Below, in pieces: positions 8,864 through 34,287 of a stretch of 55,716 nucleotides of DNA. The stretch is from Bacteroidales bacterium (GTDB lineage: Bacteria; Bacteroidota; Bacteroidia; Bacteroidales; F082). The translations under genes were made by a program, and so were the position numbers. Below the pieces are notes generated by a model. It had not been told where the DNA came from. It saw nothing but the letters and a program-made list of their open reading frames with translations, and did no database searches. How positions within the stretch are numbered: the stretch's first letter is position 1; the number at the start of each line of letters is the position of its first letter. Location: the NCBI GenBank assembly GCA_017460915.1, contig JAFUAA010000014.1, positions 1 through 55,716 on the forward strand, read 5' to 3'.

Positions 8864-8867
8864 ATGC

Positions 8868-8928
8868 AAAAATCGCACTCATATAGTGCATTTTTTTGAA
8901 AAAATCGCATTCGCATAGTGCATTTTTT
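8868..8928 (+). promoter_or_regulatory. Two direct repeats (period 32 bp) upstream of an ATPase promoter
   Basis: Two 29-bp copies at 8868-8896 and 8900-8928 match at 26 of 29 positions. Each contains a dyad, GCACTCATATAGTGC in the first and GCATTCGCATAGTGC in the second, bordered by A5 and T6 runs. The second copy ends two bases before the -7 box. The spacing of about three helical turns and position suggest operators for the ATPase gene; the binder is unknown. Confidence 0.7.
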
Positions 8929-8959: not shown

Positions 8960-10129
8960 ATGGAAAAGCTGTATGAATTCATGGAGAAACAACTTGAGGA
9001 AACCACAAGTAGTTTCATCCGTTACAAGTACGATTCGATTCATTGGGAAAACCGCATGTTGGGGTTGGTAGGTCCGAGAGGCGTGGGAAAAACCACGCTT
9101 TTTCTCCAGCACATCAAGAACAACCATTCGCTGCGCGACACGCTGTATGTCACCGCCGACCACCTGTATTTCTCGACGCATAGCCTTTACGAGACCGCCG
9201 AAAGTTTCAATAAGCAAGGAGGCCGTTTCTTCTTCATCGACGAAGTACACAAATACAGCAACTGGTCGCAGGAACTGAAACTGATGTACGATTCCTTACC
9301 CGACCTTCATGTCTATTTTACGGGTTCTTCCATTCTCGACATCGAGAAGGGAGAAGCCGACTTGAGCCGCCGTGCCCCGAAATACCTGATGCAAGGGTTG
9401 TCGTTCAGGGAGTTTTTGGCCATTCGCCACCAAATCGATTGTCCAATCTTCAGTTTGGAGCAAATCCTGAACCACGAAGCCCGCATCCCGAATGTGAAGC
9501 ATCCGTTGATGTATTTCAAGGCGTATCTGAAAGACGGCTATTATCCTTTCGGTCAGGACTTCGACTTTGATACGGAGCTGAACCAAGTCATTACGCGCAC
9601 CATCGAGATAGACATCCCGCAATTTGCCAACATGAACATCGGAACGGCCAAGAAACTCAAGAAACTGATGGTCATTTTGGCTGAACTGGTGCCTTACAAA
9701 CCCAATATGACCAGCCTTGGGAGTCAAATCCTGGCCAGTCGCAACAATGTGGAAGACTATCTGACTTATATGGAAAAGGCGGGACTTCTCGCACAATTGC
9801 GCGATGGCACGGGTGGTTTGGGCGAACTCGACAAAGTGGAGAAAGTCTATCTCGACAATACCAACCTGATGTACAGTTTAGGCGATGGGCAGGAAGACGC
9901 TGGCACGGTAAGAGAGACCTTTTTCTATAACCAAATGCGCGTCAATCATAAAGTTACATCATCCCCGATTTCCGATTTCGAGATTCAAGGCAAGACCTTT
10001 GAAGTGGGTGGGAAAAACAAGGGCAAACGGCAAATCACCGATGCTGCGGAAGGCTATGTGGTAAAAGATGACATTGAATTCGGCCATGGCAATGTGATTC
10101 CCATTTGGGCGTTTGGGCTGAATTATTAA
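8960..10129 (+). CDS. AAA ATPase with DUF4143-type C-terminus (copy 1)
   Basis: A 389-residue protein from ATG 8960; the frame is open further upstream but the promoter at 8930 makes this start likely. Walker A GPRGVGKTT begins near residue 38, Walker B is FFFIDEVHKY, and a sensor-like FTGSSILDI follows. The C-terminal half ends in FEVGGKNKGKRQI, the variant nuclease-like segment of one DUF4143 subgroup. These common bacterial ATPases have no settled function; proposed roles include nucleic-acid or host-defence related activity. It is one of four such genes in the window, each with a repeat array at its promoter. Its stop lies 7 bp from the convergent BlaR1-TonB gene. Confidence 0.85.
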   Translation: MEKLYEFMEKQLEETTSSFIRYKYDSIHWENRMLGLVGPRGVGKTTLFLQHIKNNHSLRDTLYVTADHLYFSTHSLYETAESFNKQGGRFFFIDEVHKYSNWSQELKLMYDSLPDLHVYFTGSSILDIEKGEADLSRRAPKYLMQGLSFREFLAIRHQIDCPIFSLEQILNHEARIPNVKHPLMYFKAYLKDGYYPFGQDFDFDTELNQVITRTIEIDIPQFANMNIGTAKKLKKLMVILAELVPYKPNMTSLGSQILASRNNVEDYLTYMEKAGLLAQLRDGTGGLGELDKVEKVYLDNTNLMYSLGDGQEDAGTVRETFFYNQMRVNHKVTSSPISDFEIQGKTFEVGGKNKGKRQITDAAEGYVVKDDIEFGHGNVIPIWAFGLNY

Positions 10130-13892: not shown

Positions 13893-15233
13893 TTAGATGG
13901 GTTTGAAAACATACACTGGGTTGTCAAACTCCGTCGGCTGAAGGTACATCAACATGTAAACAGGCCAATAATCCACATTCCCATGTAGTTCATAATTGCC
14001 GCTTGAAAACACTATGGCGGAACGGATGTCATAGTCCTTGTTCGCCACCACATTGCTCAATGCATTGTGTCGCTTGTAGTCTTTGCCCGACTTGATTTCG
14101 ATAGGCAGAAGTTGTCCGTTGTGTTCAACCACAAAATCCAATTCTCCCTGTTTTTTGCTGTTGATATAATAAAGCGAATACCCATGAGCATGAAACTCTT
14201 GTGCAGCAAAATTCTCAAAAATGGCTCCGAAGTTGATATTGGTTTCACCCGTGATGATTTTCAGTTGGAATTGACGAGAATAAAGACATGCCAGAAGCCC
14301 GACATCGTTGAGAAACAGTTTGAACAGGTTGCGCTGTTCGTTGAGTTTCAAAGGTAGGCGTGGCTCTTCGACATTATAAGTGGGCAAGGCGACACCAGCA
14401 TCGGCAAGCCAAAGGAAACTATTCTTGTAACGCTCGAACTTTGCTTTTTCATGAAGCGACTTCAAGATAAATCGCTTGTTCTTCGCATTCAGTTCAGAAA
14501 GAATCATGTCGAAGATGTCCTTGATATAAAGGCGGTTGTTAGGATCATATTTAGCAATGTCCCTGCGGTAAAGGTTGACAATGATTTCCTGCTCCTGCCT
14601 GACAATTTGCAGATTGTTGGTTTCCAAATATTTGACGACAACTGCGGGCATTCCACCCACCACAAGGTAAAGTTGCAAAAGTTCAAGCATTTTCTCATGG
14701 ATGACGCTATCGACAGACCTGTGGTTTGCATAGCAAGAACTTAAATGTGCCATGACCTCAACACTCATGCCAACAGCACTCGAAAACTCTTCAAAGTCAA
14801 GTGGATTCAGTTCTTTTTCAGCCAAATAGCCGACAGGGACACTCCGCAAGTCGCTCAACTCGACGCCCAATAACGACCCGCTCATCACATAGCGATAACT
14901 CCCCTCATCGACTAAGAACTTGATTGAAGTGACAATCTCGGGACACTCTTGCACCTCATCAAAGAAAATCAGAGTTTCGCCTGGAACCAATTGCATCTCT
15001 GTCAGAGCAGACAAACGGAGCAAGGTTTCTTTGGCATCACGAGGATGCTCGAAAATGGTCTTTAACTTCGGATTTTCAATGAAGTTCAGTTCAACAAAGT
15101 GGTTGAAGCACTCCATGCCTACTCTACGAATGGCATAGGTTTTGCCTACTTGTCGGGCTCCCGAAACCAAAAGCGCCTTTTCATTGTTTTCAAAAAAAGA
15201 GCGTAAATAACTGTATATCTTTCTATTAATCAT
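13893..15233 (-). CDS. AAA ATPase with DUF4143 domain (copy 2)
   Basis: A 446-residue protein with Walker A GARQVGKTY (residues 25-33), Walker B LIFFDEVQECP, sensor-like YVMSGSLLGV, then the DUF4143 part containing YINSKKQGELDFVVEHNGQL and PIEIKSGKDY, which reads like the D...ExK core of a PD-(D/E)XK nuclease fold. Full length for the family. Function is not established for the family. Three repeats at 33-bp period lie immediately upstream of the start codon; the gene stands alone, divergent from the DUF4175 gene. Confidence 0.88.
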   Translation of the reverse strand: MINRKIYSYLRSFFENNEKALLVSGARQVGKTYAIRRVGMECFNHFVELNFIENPKLKTIFEHPRDAKETLLRLSALTEMQLVPGETLIFFDEVQECPEIVTSIKFLVDEGSYRYVMSGSLLGVELSDLRSVPVGYLAEKELNPLDFEEFSSAVGMSVEVMAHLSSCYANHRSVDSVIHEKMLELLQLYLVVGGMPAVVVKYLETNNLQIVRQEQEIIVNLYRRDIAKYDPNNRLYIKDIFDMILSELNAKNKRFILKSLHEKAKFERYKNSFLWLADAGVALPTYNVEEPRLPLKLNEQRNLFKLFLNDVGLLACLYSRQFQLKIITGETNINFGAIFENFAAQEFHAHGYSLYYINSKKQGELDFVVEHNGQLLPIEIKSGKDYKRHNALSNVVANKDYDIRSAIVFSSGNYELHGNVDYWPVYMLMYLQPTEFDNPVYVFKPI

Positions 15234-15240
15234 AAATAAC

Positions 15241-15321
15241 GACTTTTTCTAACCAATTCTGCAGCTTGATTTGCCACTTTTCCAACCATTATTAAGGCTG
15301 TTTTTGCCACTTTTCTAACTT
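15241..15321 (-). promoter_or_regulatory. Three direct repeats (period 33 bp) before ATPase copy 2
   Basis: On the plus strand the units are GACTTTTTCTAACCA (15241-15255), CCACTTTTCCAACCA (15274-15288) and CCACTTTTCTAACTT (15307-15321), each exactly 33 bp apart; the second and third also share a preceding TTG. Read on the minus strand they give GTTAGAAAAGTGGCAA-type units, the last one ending eight bases before ATG 15233. A weak -7-like TATTATTG on the minus strand at 15331-15338 would place all three in the leader. Confidence 0.65.
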
Positions 15322-25601: not shown

Positions 25602-27095
25602 ATGACCGAAAACAAACTAGGCTCCTTGGCGAAGCAAACCGCCATTTACGGCTTGAGCAGCATCATCGGCAGGTTCTTGAACTACCTGCTAGTGCCGCTT
25701 TACACTTATAAAATCGCTGCCGAGTCGGGCGGCTACGGCATCGTCACCAACTTGTATGCCTACACCGCTCTGCTGCTCGTCATTCTCACTTTCGGCATGG
25801 AGACCACCTTCTTCCGCTTCTCCAACAAGGAAGGCGTGAACCCCGACAAGGCGTTTTCCACCTCGGCGCTGGCCGTGGGTTTTGTGGCCTTGCTGTTCGT
25901 AACCTTGGTCAGCGTTTTCTTGAAGCCTATATCAAGTGCCTTGGACTATTCGGCCCATCCCGAATTTGTCGAAATCATGGCCATCATCGTGGCTTTGGAT
26001 GCGTTCCAAGCCATCCTCTTTGCTCGCTTGCGTTACGAGAATAAGGCCATCAAGTTTGCCACGCTGAAGCTGTTGTTCATCTTCCTCAACATCGGAATGA
26101 ATCTGTTCATTTTCCTCGTCGCTCCCAGCCTGAAAGAAAGCCATCCCGCGCTGATGGGTTGGTACGAAACGAGCTACCAAGTCGGCTATATCTTCATCGT
26201 CAACCTCATCTGCACGGGTCTCATCACTTTAGGTTTCATTCCCGAAATCAAGAAGTTGCGTTTCGTCCTCGACCGCGCCTTGCTGAAACAGATGCTCAAC
26301 TACACTTGGCCCCTGTTGCTTTTAGGCTTGGCAGGCATCCTCAACCAAGTGGCCGACAAAATCTGTTACCGCTTCATCGTGCCGGGCAAGGAAGGTGAGG
26401 TGCAACTCGGCATCTATGGCGCCTGCGTGAAAATAGCGATGATCATGGCGATGATTACGCAAGCCTTCCGCTATGCCTATGAGCCTTTCGTCTTCGGCGG
26501 CAAGCGCGACAAGGAGGACCGCCAAACCCAAGCCTCGGTGATGAAATATTTCATCATCTTCACGCTGCTGGCTTTCCTCGCCGTGGTGATGTATATGCCC
26601 ATTCTGAAACACATCATCAAGAGCGACTATTGGGAGGGCCTGCGTGTCATTCCCATCGTGATGATGGCCGAGATTTTCATGGGCATTTATTTCAACCTCT
26701 CGTTCTGGTACAAACTCATCGACGAGACGTGGTGGGGCGCCATCTTCAGCGCCATCGGCTGCGCAGTGCTATTAGCCATCAACTTCATCTTCGTGCCCCG
26801 ATACGGCTACATGGCTTGTGCTTGGGGCGGCTTTGCGGGCTATGGCGTTTGTATGGTGTTGTCCTATTTCGTCGGGCAAAAGAAAGCCCCAATTCCCTAC
26901 GACCTAAAATCAGCGTTCCTCTATTTCGCCGTGGCTATCGCGCTTTATTTCGTCCAGAAATACATCCACATCGAGAGCACCATTCTGACCTTGGTCGTGA
27001 ACACGGGTCTGTTGCTAGTTTTCTTTGCCATCATCTGCTGGCGGGAGAAGGATTTGGTGAAGGGCGTTTTGGGGTGGATTAGGAGAAGAAAGTAA
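25602..27095 (+). CDS. Polysaccharide (oligosaccharide) flippase, Wzx-like
   Basis: A 497-residue integral membrane protein with about 14 hydrophobic segments (e.g. LLLGLAGILNQVADKI, YFIIFTLLAFLAVVMYM) of the MOP/Wzx export family that flips undecaprenyl-linked oligosaccharides. The N-terminal GLSSIIGRFLNYLLVPLYT is typical of the family. It starts 9 bp after hicA, probably an accident of insertion of the TA pair, and is distant from the sugar genes at 39-51 kb. Confidence 0.9.
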   Translation: MTENKLGSLAKQTAIYGLSSIIGRFLNYLLVPLYTYKIAAESGGYGIVTNLYAYTALLLVILTFGMETTFFRFSNKEGVNPDKAFSTSALAVGFVALLFVTLVSVFLKPISSALDYSAHPEFVEIMAIIVALDAFQAILFARLRYENKAIKFATLKLLFIFLNIGMNLFIFLVAPSLKESHPALMGWYETSYQVGYIFIVNLICTGLITLGFIPEIKKLRFVLDRALLKQMLNYTWPLLLLGLAGILNQVADKICYRFIVPGKEGEVQLGIYGACVKIAMIMAMITQAFRYAYEPFVFGGKRDKEDRQTQASVMKYFIIFTLLAFLAVVMYMPILKHIIKSDYWEGLRVIPIVMMAEIFMGIYFNLSFWYKLIDETWWGAIFSAIGCAVLLAINFIFVPRYGYMACAWGGFAGYGVCMVLSYFVGQKKAPIPYDLKSAFLYFAVAIALYFVQKYIHIESTILTLVVNTGLLLVFFAIICWREKDLVKGVLGWIRRRK

Positions 27096-27110: not shown

Positions 27111-27201
27111 AAACTCGTAGAAAAAAATGTAGTTTCAATGCCAAAAGTCGTCTGAAAAAGTGTAATTTTGCAGCGGAAAGTCGTCAAGAAAAATGTCATT
27201 T
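27111..27201 (+). promoter_or_regulatory. Three direct repeats (period exactly 33 bp) at ATPase copy 3 promoter
   Basis: 25-bp units start at 27111, 27144 and 27177. They agree at 17 of 25 positions with the pattern AAA-s-TCGT, then a run of A, TGT and TTT (units 2 and 3 both begin AAAGTCGTC). Unit 2 ends inside the -7 box and unit 3 ends four bases before the ATG, so the array spans the promoter and the leader. Confidence 0.7.
27163..27170 (+). promoter_or_regulatory. -7 box of ATPase copy 3
   Basis: TAATTTTG formed by the end of the second 33-bp-period repeat, 35 bp before ATG 27206. Confidence 0.6.
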
Positions 27202-27205
27202 GATT

Positions 27206-28507
27206 ATGTATAGAGCTGTAATTGAGGATTTAATACACTGGAAACAAAGCACCAACAGAAAACCGCTCATCCTGCAAGGCGCACGACAGGTGGGCAAAAC
27301 CTACATTCTGAAGGAATTCGGGCGTTCGGAGTATGCCAAAACGGTGCACATCAGCTTCGACCGCGACGAAAAGGCGCGGCAGTTCTTCAGCGAAGGTGGC
27401 GGTGCGGAAAGGATTGTCAGGTTGCTTTCGGCGCATACCGAAACCGACATCACTGCAGGCGACACCCTTGTCATTCTCGATGAAATACAAGAATGTCCTG
27501 CCGCATTGGAATCGTTGAAGTATTTCCAAGAGGAAATGCCTCAATATCACATCGTTGTGGCGGGTTCGCTGTTGTGGATTTCCATGCACGGCAACGCCTC
27601 GTTTCCGGTTGGCAAGGTTGACATGATGCGGTTGTTTCCCATGACATACGAGGAATTTCTTGCCGCCATGGGCCGACAAAGCCTGTTGAAAGCCTTGCAG
27701 GAGCAGGATTGGGAAGTCATTAATAACATGAACGAGGTCTATATTGACTTTTTGCGGCAATATTATTATGTTGGCGGTATGCCCGAGGCGGTGCTAGCCT
27801 ACACTGAAGGCCGCGGTCTGAAGGAAGTGCGACAGATTCAGGAGCGGATTTTGGCGGCCTATCGCTTCGATTTCTCGAAACACGCACCCTCCAGCGAAGT
27901 GCCGCGCATCGGTATGGTGTGGGACAGCATCCCTGCGCAACTGGCCAAAGACAACAAGAAATTCATTTACGGCGCACTGAAAAAAGGCGCGCGTGCCTCC
28001 CAATTCGAGATGGCAATACAGTGGCTCAACGATGCCGGACTGGTCCACAAAGTGAATCGGGTGAGCGACATCAAAATGCCGCTCAAATTCTACGAGGATT
28101 TTTCGGCCTTCAAACTGTTTCTCCTCGACGTGGGCCTGATGGGGGCCATGGTGAATGCACCTGCGTCTTTGGTACTCATCGGCAACGACATCTTCAAGGA
28201 ATACAAAGGCGCGTTCACCGAACTGTTTGCCTATACCCAATTGGTCACAACGGGCATTCCTGTTTATTACCATAGCGTCGACAATTCCACCATCGAGATT
28301 GATTTTGCCGTGCAAATCGGGGAAAACGTCTATCCCGTTGAGGTGAAATCTGAAGTCAGTTTGCAGTCCAAGTCATTGAAGACCTTCATCCAAGACCACC
28401 CCGAATTGAAGGCTTTGCGGCTGTCCATGCAGAACCACATCGTCCAAGGCTGGGTGGAGAACCTTCCGCTTTTCGCGTTCAAGGAAGCGCTGAAAGCGAG
28501 ATCATAA
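27206..28507 (+). CDS. AAA ATPase with DUF4143 domain (copy 3)
   Basis: A 433-residue protein from ATG 27206 (a TTG two codons upstream is less likely). Walker A GARQVGKTY at residues 25-33, Walker B LVILDEIQECP, sensor-like IVVAGSLLWI, winged-helix-like middle region, and C-terminal IEIDFAVQIGENVYPVEVKSE with D...ExK spacing of a nuclease-like fold. Same subgroup as copy 2, from which it clearly differs in sequence. Solitary gene with its own repeat array; role unknown. Confidence 0.88.
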   Translation: MYRAVIEDLIHWKQSTNRKPLILQGARQVGKTYILKEFGRSEYAKTVHISFDRDEKARQFFSEGGGAERIVRLLSAHTETDITAGDTLVILDEIQECPAALESLKYFQEEMPQYHIVVAGSLLWISMHGNASFPVGKVDMMRLFPMTYEEFLAAMGRQSLLKALQEQDWEVINNMNEVYIDFLRQYYYVGGMPEAVLAYTEGRGLKEVRQIQERILAAYRFDFSKHAPSSEVPRIGMVWDSIPAQLAKDNKKFIYGALKKGARASQFEMAIQWLNDAGLVHKVNRVSDIKMPLKFYEDFSAFKLFLLDVGLMGAMVNAPASLVLIGNDIFKEYKGAFTELFAYTQLVTTGIPVYYHSVDNSTIEIDFAVQIGENVYPVEVKSEVSLQSKSLKTFIQDHPELKALRLSMQNHIVQGWVENLPLFAFKEALKARS

Positions 28508-32972: not shown

Positions 32973-34107
32973 TCAAGGAGTCATCAAGGTATCCAGATAG
33001 TTTTCGGGAGTAATCACCACGGTTTCCTTCACGGGGTAAGCCTCCAAGAAGCTCTTGGGGAAATGCGCTTTCTTTTCGGGATGCCATTTCATCTCGAATG
33101 CGGTCATTTGGCCGTCACATTCCTCAACGAGGTCAATCTCCTGCTGCTGGGTGGTGCGCCAAAAATAGGAATTGCAGAGATGCTCGTTGTAATGGTTTCG
33201 CTTTTTTCGCTCAGCGATGAAGAAGTTTTCCCACAAAGGCCCCATGTCGCCACGCAAGGAAACGGGCACAAACTGCTGAATGACAGCGTTTCGCACACCT
33301 GTATCGTAAAAATAGACTTTCTTGCTTTTTTTCAGTTCGTTTCTCAGGTTGCGGTTGAGTCCAGTCAAACGGAACACCACATAGCATTTCTCCAACAAGT
33401 CGATGTATTTGTCGATGGTCTTGCTGTCGGTTTGCAGCATTTTGGCCAATTCGTTCGTCGAGACTTCACTTCCCATCTGAAACGCAAGAGCCTGCACCAA
33501 TTTCTCGACCAATTCGGGCTTGCGAATGTCGCCTAACGAGAAGATGTCCTTATATAAATAACTTTGTGTCAGTTCGGTAAGGTATCTTCGAGCCTGTTCA
33601 GGGTGCTGGATGATGTCTGGATAGCTGCCGTATATCAGCCGGTTTTCCAAAGTCCGTTTTTCTTCGAGCAGGCCGTAAGTCTGCACGATTTCGGCACTTG
33701 ATATGGGATAGAGATGGTATTCCGATTTGCGTCCCGTAAGGGGGGGCGTTTAGCCGGTTGCGCAACTCGAAAGCGGACGAGCCGGTGGCTATCACCTGAA
33801 TATCCTTGAAATTGTCAACGATGAGTTTCAGCGTCAGGCCGATGTTGTCCACCTTTTGCGCCTCATCGATAATAACGAGTTTGTTGGTTCCAATCAGCAT
33901 TTTCAGTTTGGCCACATTGGTGTTTTCCAATAGGTTGCGCGCTTCTGTTTCGTCGCAATTGAGCATCAAGACGGGCTGGTTGCTTTCATTCGCCAATAGG
34001 CTGAGCAAGGTGGTCTTTCCCACCTGACGGGCACCCACCAGCACGATGGCTTTGCCATGATATAGTTGTCTTTCTATGACTTCTTTTAATGCTCTTTGTA
34101 TCATCAT
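32973..34107 (-). pseudogene. AAA ATPase with DUF4143 domain (copy 4), frameshifted in a G7 tract
   Basis: From ATG 34107 the frame carries Walker A GARQVGKTT (residues 25-33), LVIIDEAQKVDN and VIATGSSAFELRNRLN, then shifts at a run of seven G (plus strand 33740-33746). With one fewer base the protein continues PLTGRKSEYHLYPISSAEIV into the other open frame, through DUF4143 and a nuclease-like EIDLVEECDG...AFEMKW to 32973. Joined length would be about 378 residues, normal for this subgroup. Phase variation, true decay and sequencing error are all possible. Confidence 0.85.
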
Positions 34108-34135: not shown

Positions 34136-34188
34136 TTTTTTGGAATATAATCCAAAATTTTGGTATTTTTTTTGGAATATAATCCAAA
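34136..34188 (-). promoter_or_regulatory. Two direct repeats (period 32 bp) upstream of ATPase copy 4
   Basis: Two identical 21-bp copies at 34136-34156 and 34168-34188 contain the dyad TTGGAATATAATCCAA preceded by a T run. The period is 32 bp and the proximal copy abuts the -7 box, the same geometry as at 8868-8937 although the sequence is unrelated. Confidence 0.72.
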
Positions 34189-34287
34189 TAATTGAGATTT
34201 ATAGGGAAGTTGTGTCACAACGGTTACTGTAACCGTGGTTGCATAAAGCAAAAACATAAAATTCAGGCCTAAACCAAATATTTATCC

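Follow-up and report, generated by a model that had tools for sequence, protein, structure and literature searches.

Direct-repeat arrays at the promoters of AAA/DUF4143 ATPase genes are probably read by the ATPases that they precede

Why does a bacterial ATPase gene carry a row of direct repeats of exactly regular period across its own promoter, and what reads them? The question is raised by a locus in the window, by which we mean the whole stretch of 55,716 nucleotides from a Bacteroidales bacterium that was analysed here. Three 25-bp units lie on the forward strand at 27111..27135, 27144..27168 and 27177..27201. The first is upstream of the promoter box; the second, with 0 mismatches to TCGTCNNAAAAANTGTNNTTT, overlaps it; and the third is in the leader, its last base 4 bp before the ATG at 27206. 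The box itself, TAATTTTG at 27163..27170 (+), fits TAnnTTTG, which we take to be the promoter box consensus of Bacteroidetes. Both spacings are 33 bp, the three units are identical at 17 of 25 columns, and the array scores 20.6 against a maximum of 11.6 among 100 dinucleotide shuffles. The unit positions, the 33-bp period, the 17/25 agreement and the coverage of box and leader had all been described in a first-pass annotation of this DNA, with which the recount agrees in every respect. Immediately upstream of the array, at 25602-27095 (+), is a gene for a 497-aa protein without Pfam match.

The gene behind the array (27206..28507, +), whose product is the proposed reader, encodes an AAA_14 domain (Pfam match, 27254..27661), an HTH-like region seen by eye from the sequence at about residues 226-290 (27881..28075), and DUF4143, whose Pfam match (27869..28351) spans both the HTH-like part and a nuclease-fold part with E364, D366, E379 and K381; all of these are on the plus strand. 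In 43 sequences, E364, E379 and K381 are invariant, and D366 and E339 are kept in at least 90%, so that the putative nuclease domain has the D...(D/E)xK signature of the PD-(D/E)XK superfamily. The gene belongs to the PADLOC type PDC-S01 (model PDLC04786, E 3e-172). Its codons 387-389, encoding Gln387 and Lys389 among others, lie at 28364..28372 (+), and to these residues we return below, as they covary with unit bases d3 and d4/d5.

Repeats of period 32 or 33 bp had also been ascribed to three other ATPase genes in the window, two or three copies at each, and they are indeed there. Upstream of the gene at 8960..10129 (+; AAA_14 plus a diverged DUF4143 by Pfam, PDC-S01 by PADLOC), the repeat scan finds two 32-bp units at 8865..8896, with an inner dyad GCACT...AGTGC, and 8897..8928 (both +), 32 bp apart and 88% identical; the DUF4143 match of this gene, 24.4 bits, is under the cut-off of 28.1. 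The gene at 13893..15233 (-; AAA_14 plus DUF4143 by Pfam, PDC-S01 by PADLOC) has three units of 33-bp period from the same kind of scan, GTTAGAAAAGTGGCAAAAAC at 15300..15319, GTTGGAAAAGTGGCAAATCA at 15267..15286 and GTTAGAAAAAGTCGTTATTT at 15234..15253 (all -), the last of which abuts the ATG. The fourth gene, starting at 34107 on the minus strand, is preceded by two 32-bp units found by repeat and dyad scan at 34136..34167, with the dyad TTTGGATTATATTCCAAA, and 34168..34199 (both -), 32 bp apart and 84% identical. Pfam places its AAA_14 part at 33598..34107 (-) in one frame and its DUF4143 part at 32973..33686 (-) in another. Although this gene is split over two frames in the present assembly, both its promoter dyad units are still alike. 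AAA_14 and DUF4143 both exceed their curated cut-offs in the genes at 13893 and 27206, and in the gene at 34107 over two frames. PADLOC models of PDC-S01 match three of the window proteins, those of the genes at 8960, 15233 and 27206, with best E values of 3e-172 (27206), 4e-188 and 1e-24, and a homologue from Glaesserella matches them as well.

Four genes share the design in the window, but the family is much larger in this genome of 2.98 Mb, where PF13635 (DUF4143) has 45 matches spread over many contigs, 41 of them over the cut-off, and AAA_14 has 66. Among 49 upstream regions scanned, two of them duplicates of others, 36 have their best self-match, weak ones included, at a lag of 32-34 or 64-66, and 7 have it at 23, which departs from the 32-33 bp proposed earlier. 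In the window and 20 other stretches of the genome, a score of at least 18 at lags 23, 31-34 or 64-67 was reached by 16 of 26 ATPase genes and by 3 of 151 other genes. Two of these three share their intergenic region with a divergent ATPase gene; the remaining one encodes DUF4143 but has no AAA match listed.

Is the design kept by relatives? A search of 21 genomes yielded 126 distinct ORFs. These come from the upper end of the PF13635 scores and are no random sample, nor did every genome contribute. After removal of a cut copy of another gene and a divergent neighbour sharing its array (both at locus L085), 124 remained, and 98 of them (100 of 126 before removal) have a significant upstream array, one that exceeds all 100 dinucleotide shuffles. 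The lags of the 98 arrays are 33 (28 arrays), 32 (21), 23 (21), 22 (6), 64-66 (6), 34 (3) and other values (13). On a FastTree tree of the proteins, one clade has 23 bp in 19 of 19, a clade of five has 22 bp throughout, and most other arrays are at 32-34; a few 22/23-bp arrays (L077, L105, L109) fall outside both short-period clades. When the 23-bp clade was enlarged to 89 genes, 19 earlier and 70 new, the top lag was 23 in 79 and 46 in 2, with scores of at least 14. A clade of ten with high DUF4143 scores (including L051, L053-L057 and L071-L073) is mostly without direct-repeat arrays; of 9 members, 7 have a hyphenated dyad in the 150 bp upstream that scores at least as high as the best of 20 mononucleotide shuffles, 5 of them higher. 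Diverged relatives gave outlier periods of 52, 16, 15 and 42 bp (L042 at C22:141172, L049, L050 and L122), and the units of L042 are long inverted repeats. It is tempting to see a strict quantisation by helical turns in 22-23, 32-34, 42 and 52 bp, but we keep this as a hint only because single genes also gave 13-20, 30, 40, 56, 59 and 61.

The clade to which the window gene belongs keeps its period of 32/33 bp across phyla. A sample of named genomes, consisting of the best 80 of 571 relatives together with five loci from viral contigs, covers Bacteroidota, Clostridia, Spirochaetes, Fibrobacter, Kiritimatiellae, Akkermansia and others. In 63 of these 85 loci the array exceeds all 60 shuffles, and 61 of the 63 are at lag 32, 33, 65 or 66; in the other 22 the upstream array is not significant against the 60 shuffles. 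Control windows from the same loci were significant at any lag in 19 of 240, with one at 33 and none at 32. Ten further copies, seven on plasmids of Bacteroides, Parabacteroides, Segatella, Glaesserella, Fusobacterium, Collinsella and Acinetobacter and three on phage-labelled contigs, were compared without shuffles, and all have their best lag at 32, 33 or 66, two of them weakly. The first-pass annotation had predicted that repeats of 32-33 bp would be overrepresented before homologous genes and would follow the protein type; the former is borne out by 61 of 63 arrays at lag 32, 33, 65 or 66 against a single control window of 240 at lag 32 or 33, and the latter by 19 of 19 and 81 of 89 genes at 23 or 46 in one clade, and by 32/33 in the clade of the window gene.

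What do the units look like, and how private are they? In the window clade, the motif of 24 columns is roughly TTC[GC]NNNN[AG][AG]AAAA[AG]TGT and occurs in 84 of 99 regions; 63 of them have two or more copies and 46 three or more. In the array-bearing clades, sites are typically two to four per gene, and up to six. Of 125 distances between neighbour sites, 88 are 33 bp, 31 are 32, five are 65/66 and one is 52. When the same regions were scanned with the core only, 63 had arrays in forward orientation only, seven on both strands, five in inverted orientation only, and 24 none. Inverted-only arrays are those of the window-clade homologues L211, L225, L146, L207 and L143. In three of these, residue 387 is Gln: none of the six sites of L211 and L225 shows a T at d3, and in L146 the G is displaced by one base towards the start, so that d3 in the fixed register is a T. 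The other two, L207 and L143, have Lys at 387, and 3 of their 4 sites carry T. The 23-bp clade has its own aligned motif of 13.1 bits, compared with 4.1-4.3 in five column-shuffled nulls that had fewer start points. Between orthologues in different genomes, the unit is kept while flanks and spacers differ, as judged by eye. It had been claimed that each gene has a repeat sequence of its own. This is true in part only, because the clade shares the AAAARTGT half while the other half varies; even so, when the next copy of a gene's own array was compared with the best match in 39 other upstream regions of this genome, the own copy won in 31 of 40 arrays, tied in 6 and lost in 3. The 27206 array is one of the ties (14/18 both ways). 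Its unit was also searched through the genome as a pattern with up to two mismatches, next to a control pattern. Besides its three own sites, there are one site with one mismatch (C19:29068) and six with two, two of which are upstream of other family ATPases (C26:9677, C22:29053); the control gave 4. No clear regulon of this unit emerges in this genome.

If the varying half is an address, the protein that reads it should carry a corresponding signature. Mutual information over a training set of 80 non-redundant protein-array pairs of the window clade singled out d3 with residue 387 and d4/d5 with residue 389, which are six and eight residues after the nuclease-motif lysine. Lys or Arg at 387 goes with T in 50 of 54 pairs; Gln387 goes with G in 13 of 17, and G is found in none of the 63 others. 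Lys389 is paired with C at d5 in 63 of 68, and Arg389 with A at d4 in 6 of 6. For their bases, the two residues rank first of 328 columns, with an excess of 0.51 bits (d3-387) and 0.48 bits (d5-389), compared with 0.24 and 0.23 for the runners-up and with 0.38 for the highest permuted value anywhere. It is to be noted that d10-171, d10-275, d9-142, d9-300, d9-363 and d9-2 are also above this permuted maximum, and that d5-389 is outranked by d9-2, d8-363 and d10-171 once the sets are pooled. Part of these extra pairs at d8, d9 and d10 probably comes from ancestry; residue 363 is also within the nuclease motif region. A further pair, d20 with residue 265, has z 4.3, and an alignment across clades places this residue off the column of residue 252, which is discussed below.

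Since the selection of training sites had used the whole motif, the test was repeated on held-out loci with a core-only rule. Ninety-six new loci gave 61 with arrays and 54 after the redundancy filter, of which 50 share less than 90% identity with any member of the training set. In these 50, Lys or Arg at 387 goes with T in 27 of 30, compared with 6 of 20 for other residues (P 3e-5), Gln387 with G in 4 of 12 compared with 2 of 38 (P 0.024), and Lys389 with TC in 23 of 43 compared with 0 of 7 (P 0.011). Among the 37 held-out loci below 70% identity, the first association remains (21/24 vs 3/13, P 2e-4), while Gln387-G (1/8 vs 2/29) and Lys389-TC (17/33 vs 0/4, P 0.11) lose significance. In this clade, held-out loci give weaker support than the training set did. 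Shared ancestry was addressed with tree-separated pairs, by simple counting on a tree built without the tested columns: over all 134 loci, residue 387 has 13 pairs for, 0 against and 6 ties (P 1e-4), and residue 389 has 5 for, 0 against and 3 ties (P 0.03); over the held-out 50, there are 4 for, 0 against and 4 ties (P 0.06).

The 23-bp clade offers a second view, from 75 non-redundant proteins, all of them used to find the associations. Here residue 252, in the HTH-like helix KLASMSEDTIASYINAF, tracks d16-d17, Asp going with C in 19 of 22 and Lys or Arg with G in 17 of 19. The bases at d6-d7 vary with residue 344, which immediately precedes the ECD motif: Lys is paired with G at d6 in 40 of 44 and Ser with C in 12 of 15. 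Both are first of 311 columns for their bases (0.75, 0.59, 0.65 and 0.66 bits; permuted maximum 0.36). For d16-252 the excess of 0.75 compares with 0.21 for the runner-up, and for d6-344 and d7-344 the excesses of 0.65 and 0.66 compare with 0.27 and 0.37. Tree-separated pairs are for the association by 10-0 (4 ties) with Asp252, 7-0 (1 tie) with Lys/Arg252, 11-0 (1 tie) with Lys344 and 5-0 (2 ties) with Ser344; the counts for Asn252, 4-0 with 5 ties, and for residue 388, 3-0 with 1 tie, fall short of significance. Thus, although the residues differ, the two clades agree in outline. In both, one half of the unit covaries with the nuclease-fold domain, and in the 23-bp clade the HTH-like helix, whose counterpart in the window protein is the HTH-like region described above, covaries with the other. 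In the window clade, the HTH-side half is nearly invariant, and for that reason its reader is a matter of inference. As a sole reader of the DNA, the winged-helix-like part had to be dropped for the window clade, whose two clearest columns lie in DUF4143. The nuclease-fold domain seems to read DNA alongside the HTH-like helix.

Since unit bases vary together with certain residues of the ATPase, it is probable that every such protein binds the array before the gene that encodes it and regulates that gene. We would picture this as follows. The promoter region of the gene carries two to four, sometimes up to six, direct sites of about 20 bp at intervals of 22-23 or 32-34 bp, which is two or three helical turns. 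Each site would be bipartite, with one half for the HTH-like helix to read and one for the PD-(D/E)XK-fold DUF4143 domain. With such two-domain reading of phased units, ATPase protomers, perhaps one per unit, could line up on one face of the DNA as a phased oligomer. The array covers or abuts the promoter, and the ATPase would most likely repress its own transcription, to be released by its ATP state, a partner or an invading element. For this reading as a whole, that is, an array of bipartite sites at the own promoter, bound by the encoded ATPase through two domains for autoregulation and likely repression, we estimate a probability of roughly three in four from the sequence comparisons. The first-pass idea of self-specific operators bound by the cognate ATPase is accordingly supported by covariation and clade tracking, with the refinement that the units are private only in part. 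A wider picture, in which self-addressed ATPase-nucleases use this composite reader and a simple amino-acid code to stay insulated from their paralogues, and in which the promoter array acts as a sensor of invaders that arms the protein, perhaps in defence, is tentative, and we would sooner bet against it than on it.

Where the arrays lie relative to the promoter box suits an operator. In a survey of TAnnTTTG without control, with the two L085 rows counted, 54 of 60 arrays in the 33 class have such a box. It falls within 26 of them, follows the array by at most 36 bp in 22 and by more in 2, and precedes it in 4. In the 22/23-bp class, a box accompanies 26 of 27, downstream of the array in 23, inside in 2 and upstream in 1; arrays that are mostly upstream of the box would also suit activation. 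The same survey bears on a different use of the array, namely as the target or parking site of a sequence-specific nuclease, whose intact PD-(D/E)XK site would idle on the self array until invasion frees it to cut matching or unguarded DNA. That DUF4143 residues covary with the unit, that the signature E...D...ExK is kept and that PADLOC lists the family as a phage-defence candidate are all in keeping with it; the usual location of the array on or beside the box is operator-like, and we consider a parking site unlikely.

An operator could also be bound by something other than the ATPase, and separate dimer sites for an unknown regulator had indeed been offered as the alternative. Position alone would be compatible with such a regulator. 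However, periods and motifs follow the ATPase clade over many genomes, residues inside the ATPase itself covary with unit bases, and within 1.2 kb of the seven plasmid copies the gene table, which is incomplete, has no annotated gene common to them all. We give this alternative very little chance. Still harder to believe is a role of the repeats in RNA, as leader structure or in translation control. Unit 3 of gene 27206 does lie in the leader beside the start codon, but arrays of 22/23 bp are usually upstream of the box (23/26), 5 of the 99 window-clade regions have their array confined to the opposite strand, and the covarying residues sit in domains of DNA-binding type.

Might the arrays instead belong to mobile elements, as their ends, att sites or replication iterons, given that genes of the family are found also on plasmids and on phage-labelled or viral contigs? 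This is just as scarcely credible as a role in RNA. Far downstream, in the final 300 bp of each locus, the window-clade motif appears in just 2 of 99, family matches are scattered over many contigs of this genome, and the period is specific to the protein. Forty-five scattered matches in one genome argue against a Rep iteron or origin, and the incomplete gene table names no replication initiator within 1.2 kb of the seven plasmid copies. The units, degenerate and mostly in 2-4 copies, do not fit a CRISPR array. Chance or low complexity, suggested by the AT-richness of these regions, is refuted by dinucleotide shuffles and three kinds of control.

How does this compare with known systems? Plasmids have autoregulatory arrays, the iterons of Rep and the direct repeats of parC bound by ParR, in which repeats are spaced by whole helical turns. 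The likeness is that a DNA-binding protein is encoded beside its own row of direct repeats, with autoregulation, which for the present arrays is a proposal; unlike Rep and ParR, the proposed reader here is an AAA ATPase with a nuclease-fold domain, and there are tens of paralogues in one genome, many of them with an array of their own. In archaea, Orc1/Cdc6, an AAA plus winged-helix protein, reads origin recognition boxes near its own gene. Here again an AAA protein with a winged-helix-type part has direct repeats nearby, but Orc1/Cdc6 is without nuclease domain and acts at origins, whereas the present arrays are at the promoters of many paralogues. BrickBuilt repeats have a unit length of 22-23 bp. 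They are minisatellite MITEs of Porphyromonas gingivalis, alike in being minisatellites of a Bacteroidales genome; as far as the accessible part of that account goes, they are one repeat family inside a MITE, (PMC4596501). The units here differ by gene, are located at promoters and go with the protein. BrickBuilt was set aside as not alike, and so, going by the parts of their description available, were the TAACTGA repeats of Beggiatoaceae.

The family itself has been met before. PDC-S01, the PADLOC single-gene candidate for phage defence with an AAA ATPase and a PD-(D/E)XK nuclease, is the same family as three of the window proteins. In the accessible parts of the literature, it is assigned to the PD-(D/E)XK superfamily and ranked as the fourth most common defence across prokaryotes, with validation pending for most PDCs (PMC12988326), and it is the most frequent individual locus in rumen genomes, with 10,358 (PMC13356809); these parts say nothing of repeats at promoters, of self-binding or of any recognition code (PMC12988326, PMC13356809). 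An AAA+ ATPase fused to an HTH and a RecB nuclease (arCOG03166) was noted, in the portion at hand, as a likely defence or plasmid gene (PMC4158269). Compared by description, its domain order is in outline like that of the window ATPases, and unlike the array-bearing window genes, it has no operator mentioned in that portion (PMC4158269). In the open-access literature, with preprints and the PDC-defining paper outside the scope, we found no description of such arrays, of a DNA target of PDC-S01, or of binding or expression of an array-bearing gene. The residue-base covariation is new evidence that the ATPase reads the array. If this is true, the code would give many PDC-S01 genes a predicted DNA ligand readable from sequence, so that binding, autoregulation and exchange of specificity become testable together. 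It would further suggest that a restriction-nuclease fold can serve as a sequence reader at a promoter. Self-addressed arrays would offer an explanation for the coexistence of about 40 paralogues in one genome, and an amino-acid code, if real, would help dozens of paralogues per cell stay insulated.

Two minor observations are to be added. TT_P0211 of Thermus thermophilus, a DUF4143 gene whose RNA was reported, in the part of the source available, to be 6.6-fold up with plasmid present in an Ago+ strain (PMC4406477), was considered as expression evidence and rejected: the gene that we take for TT_P0211 is without array, and its induction therefore has no bearing on arrays. This ATP-binding gene (L421; pTT27 209853-211073, -) has at its start a dyad, TGAATGACTATCATTCA, seen by eye. 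The other observation concerns a gene for a 400-aa protein without Pfam match (L045:2240-3439, C22:314239, +), which has a strong upstream array of 24-bp period with a score of 31.8 and lies in the same 10-kb stretch as an array-bearing ATPase gene; it is perhaps a member of an unrelated family with the same design.
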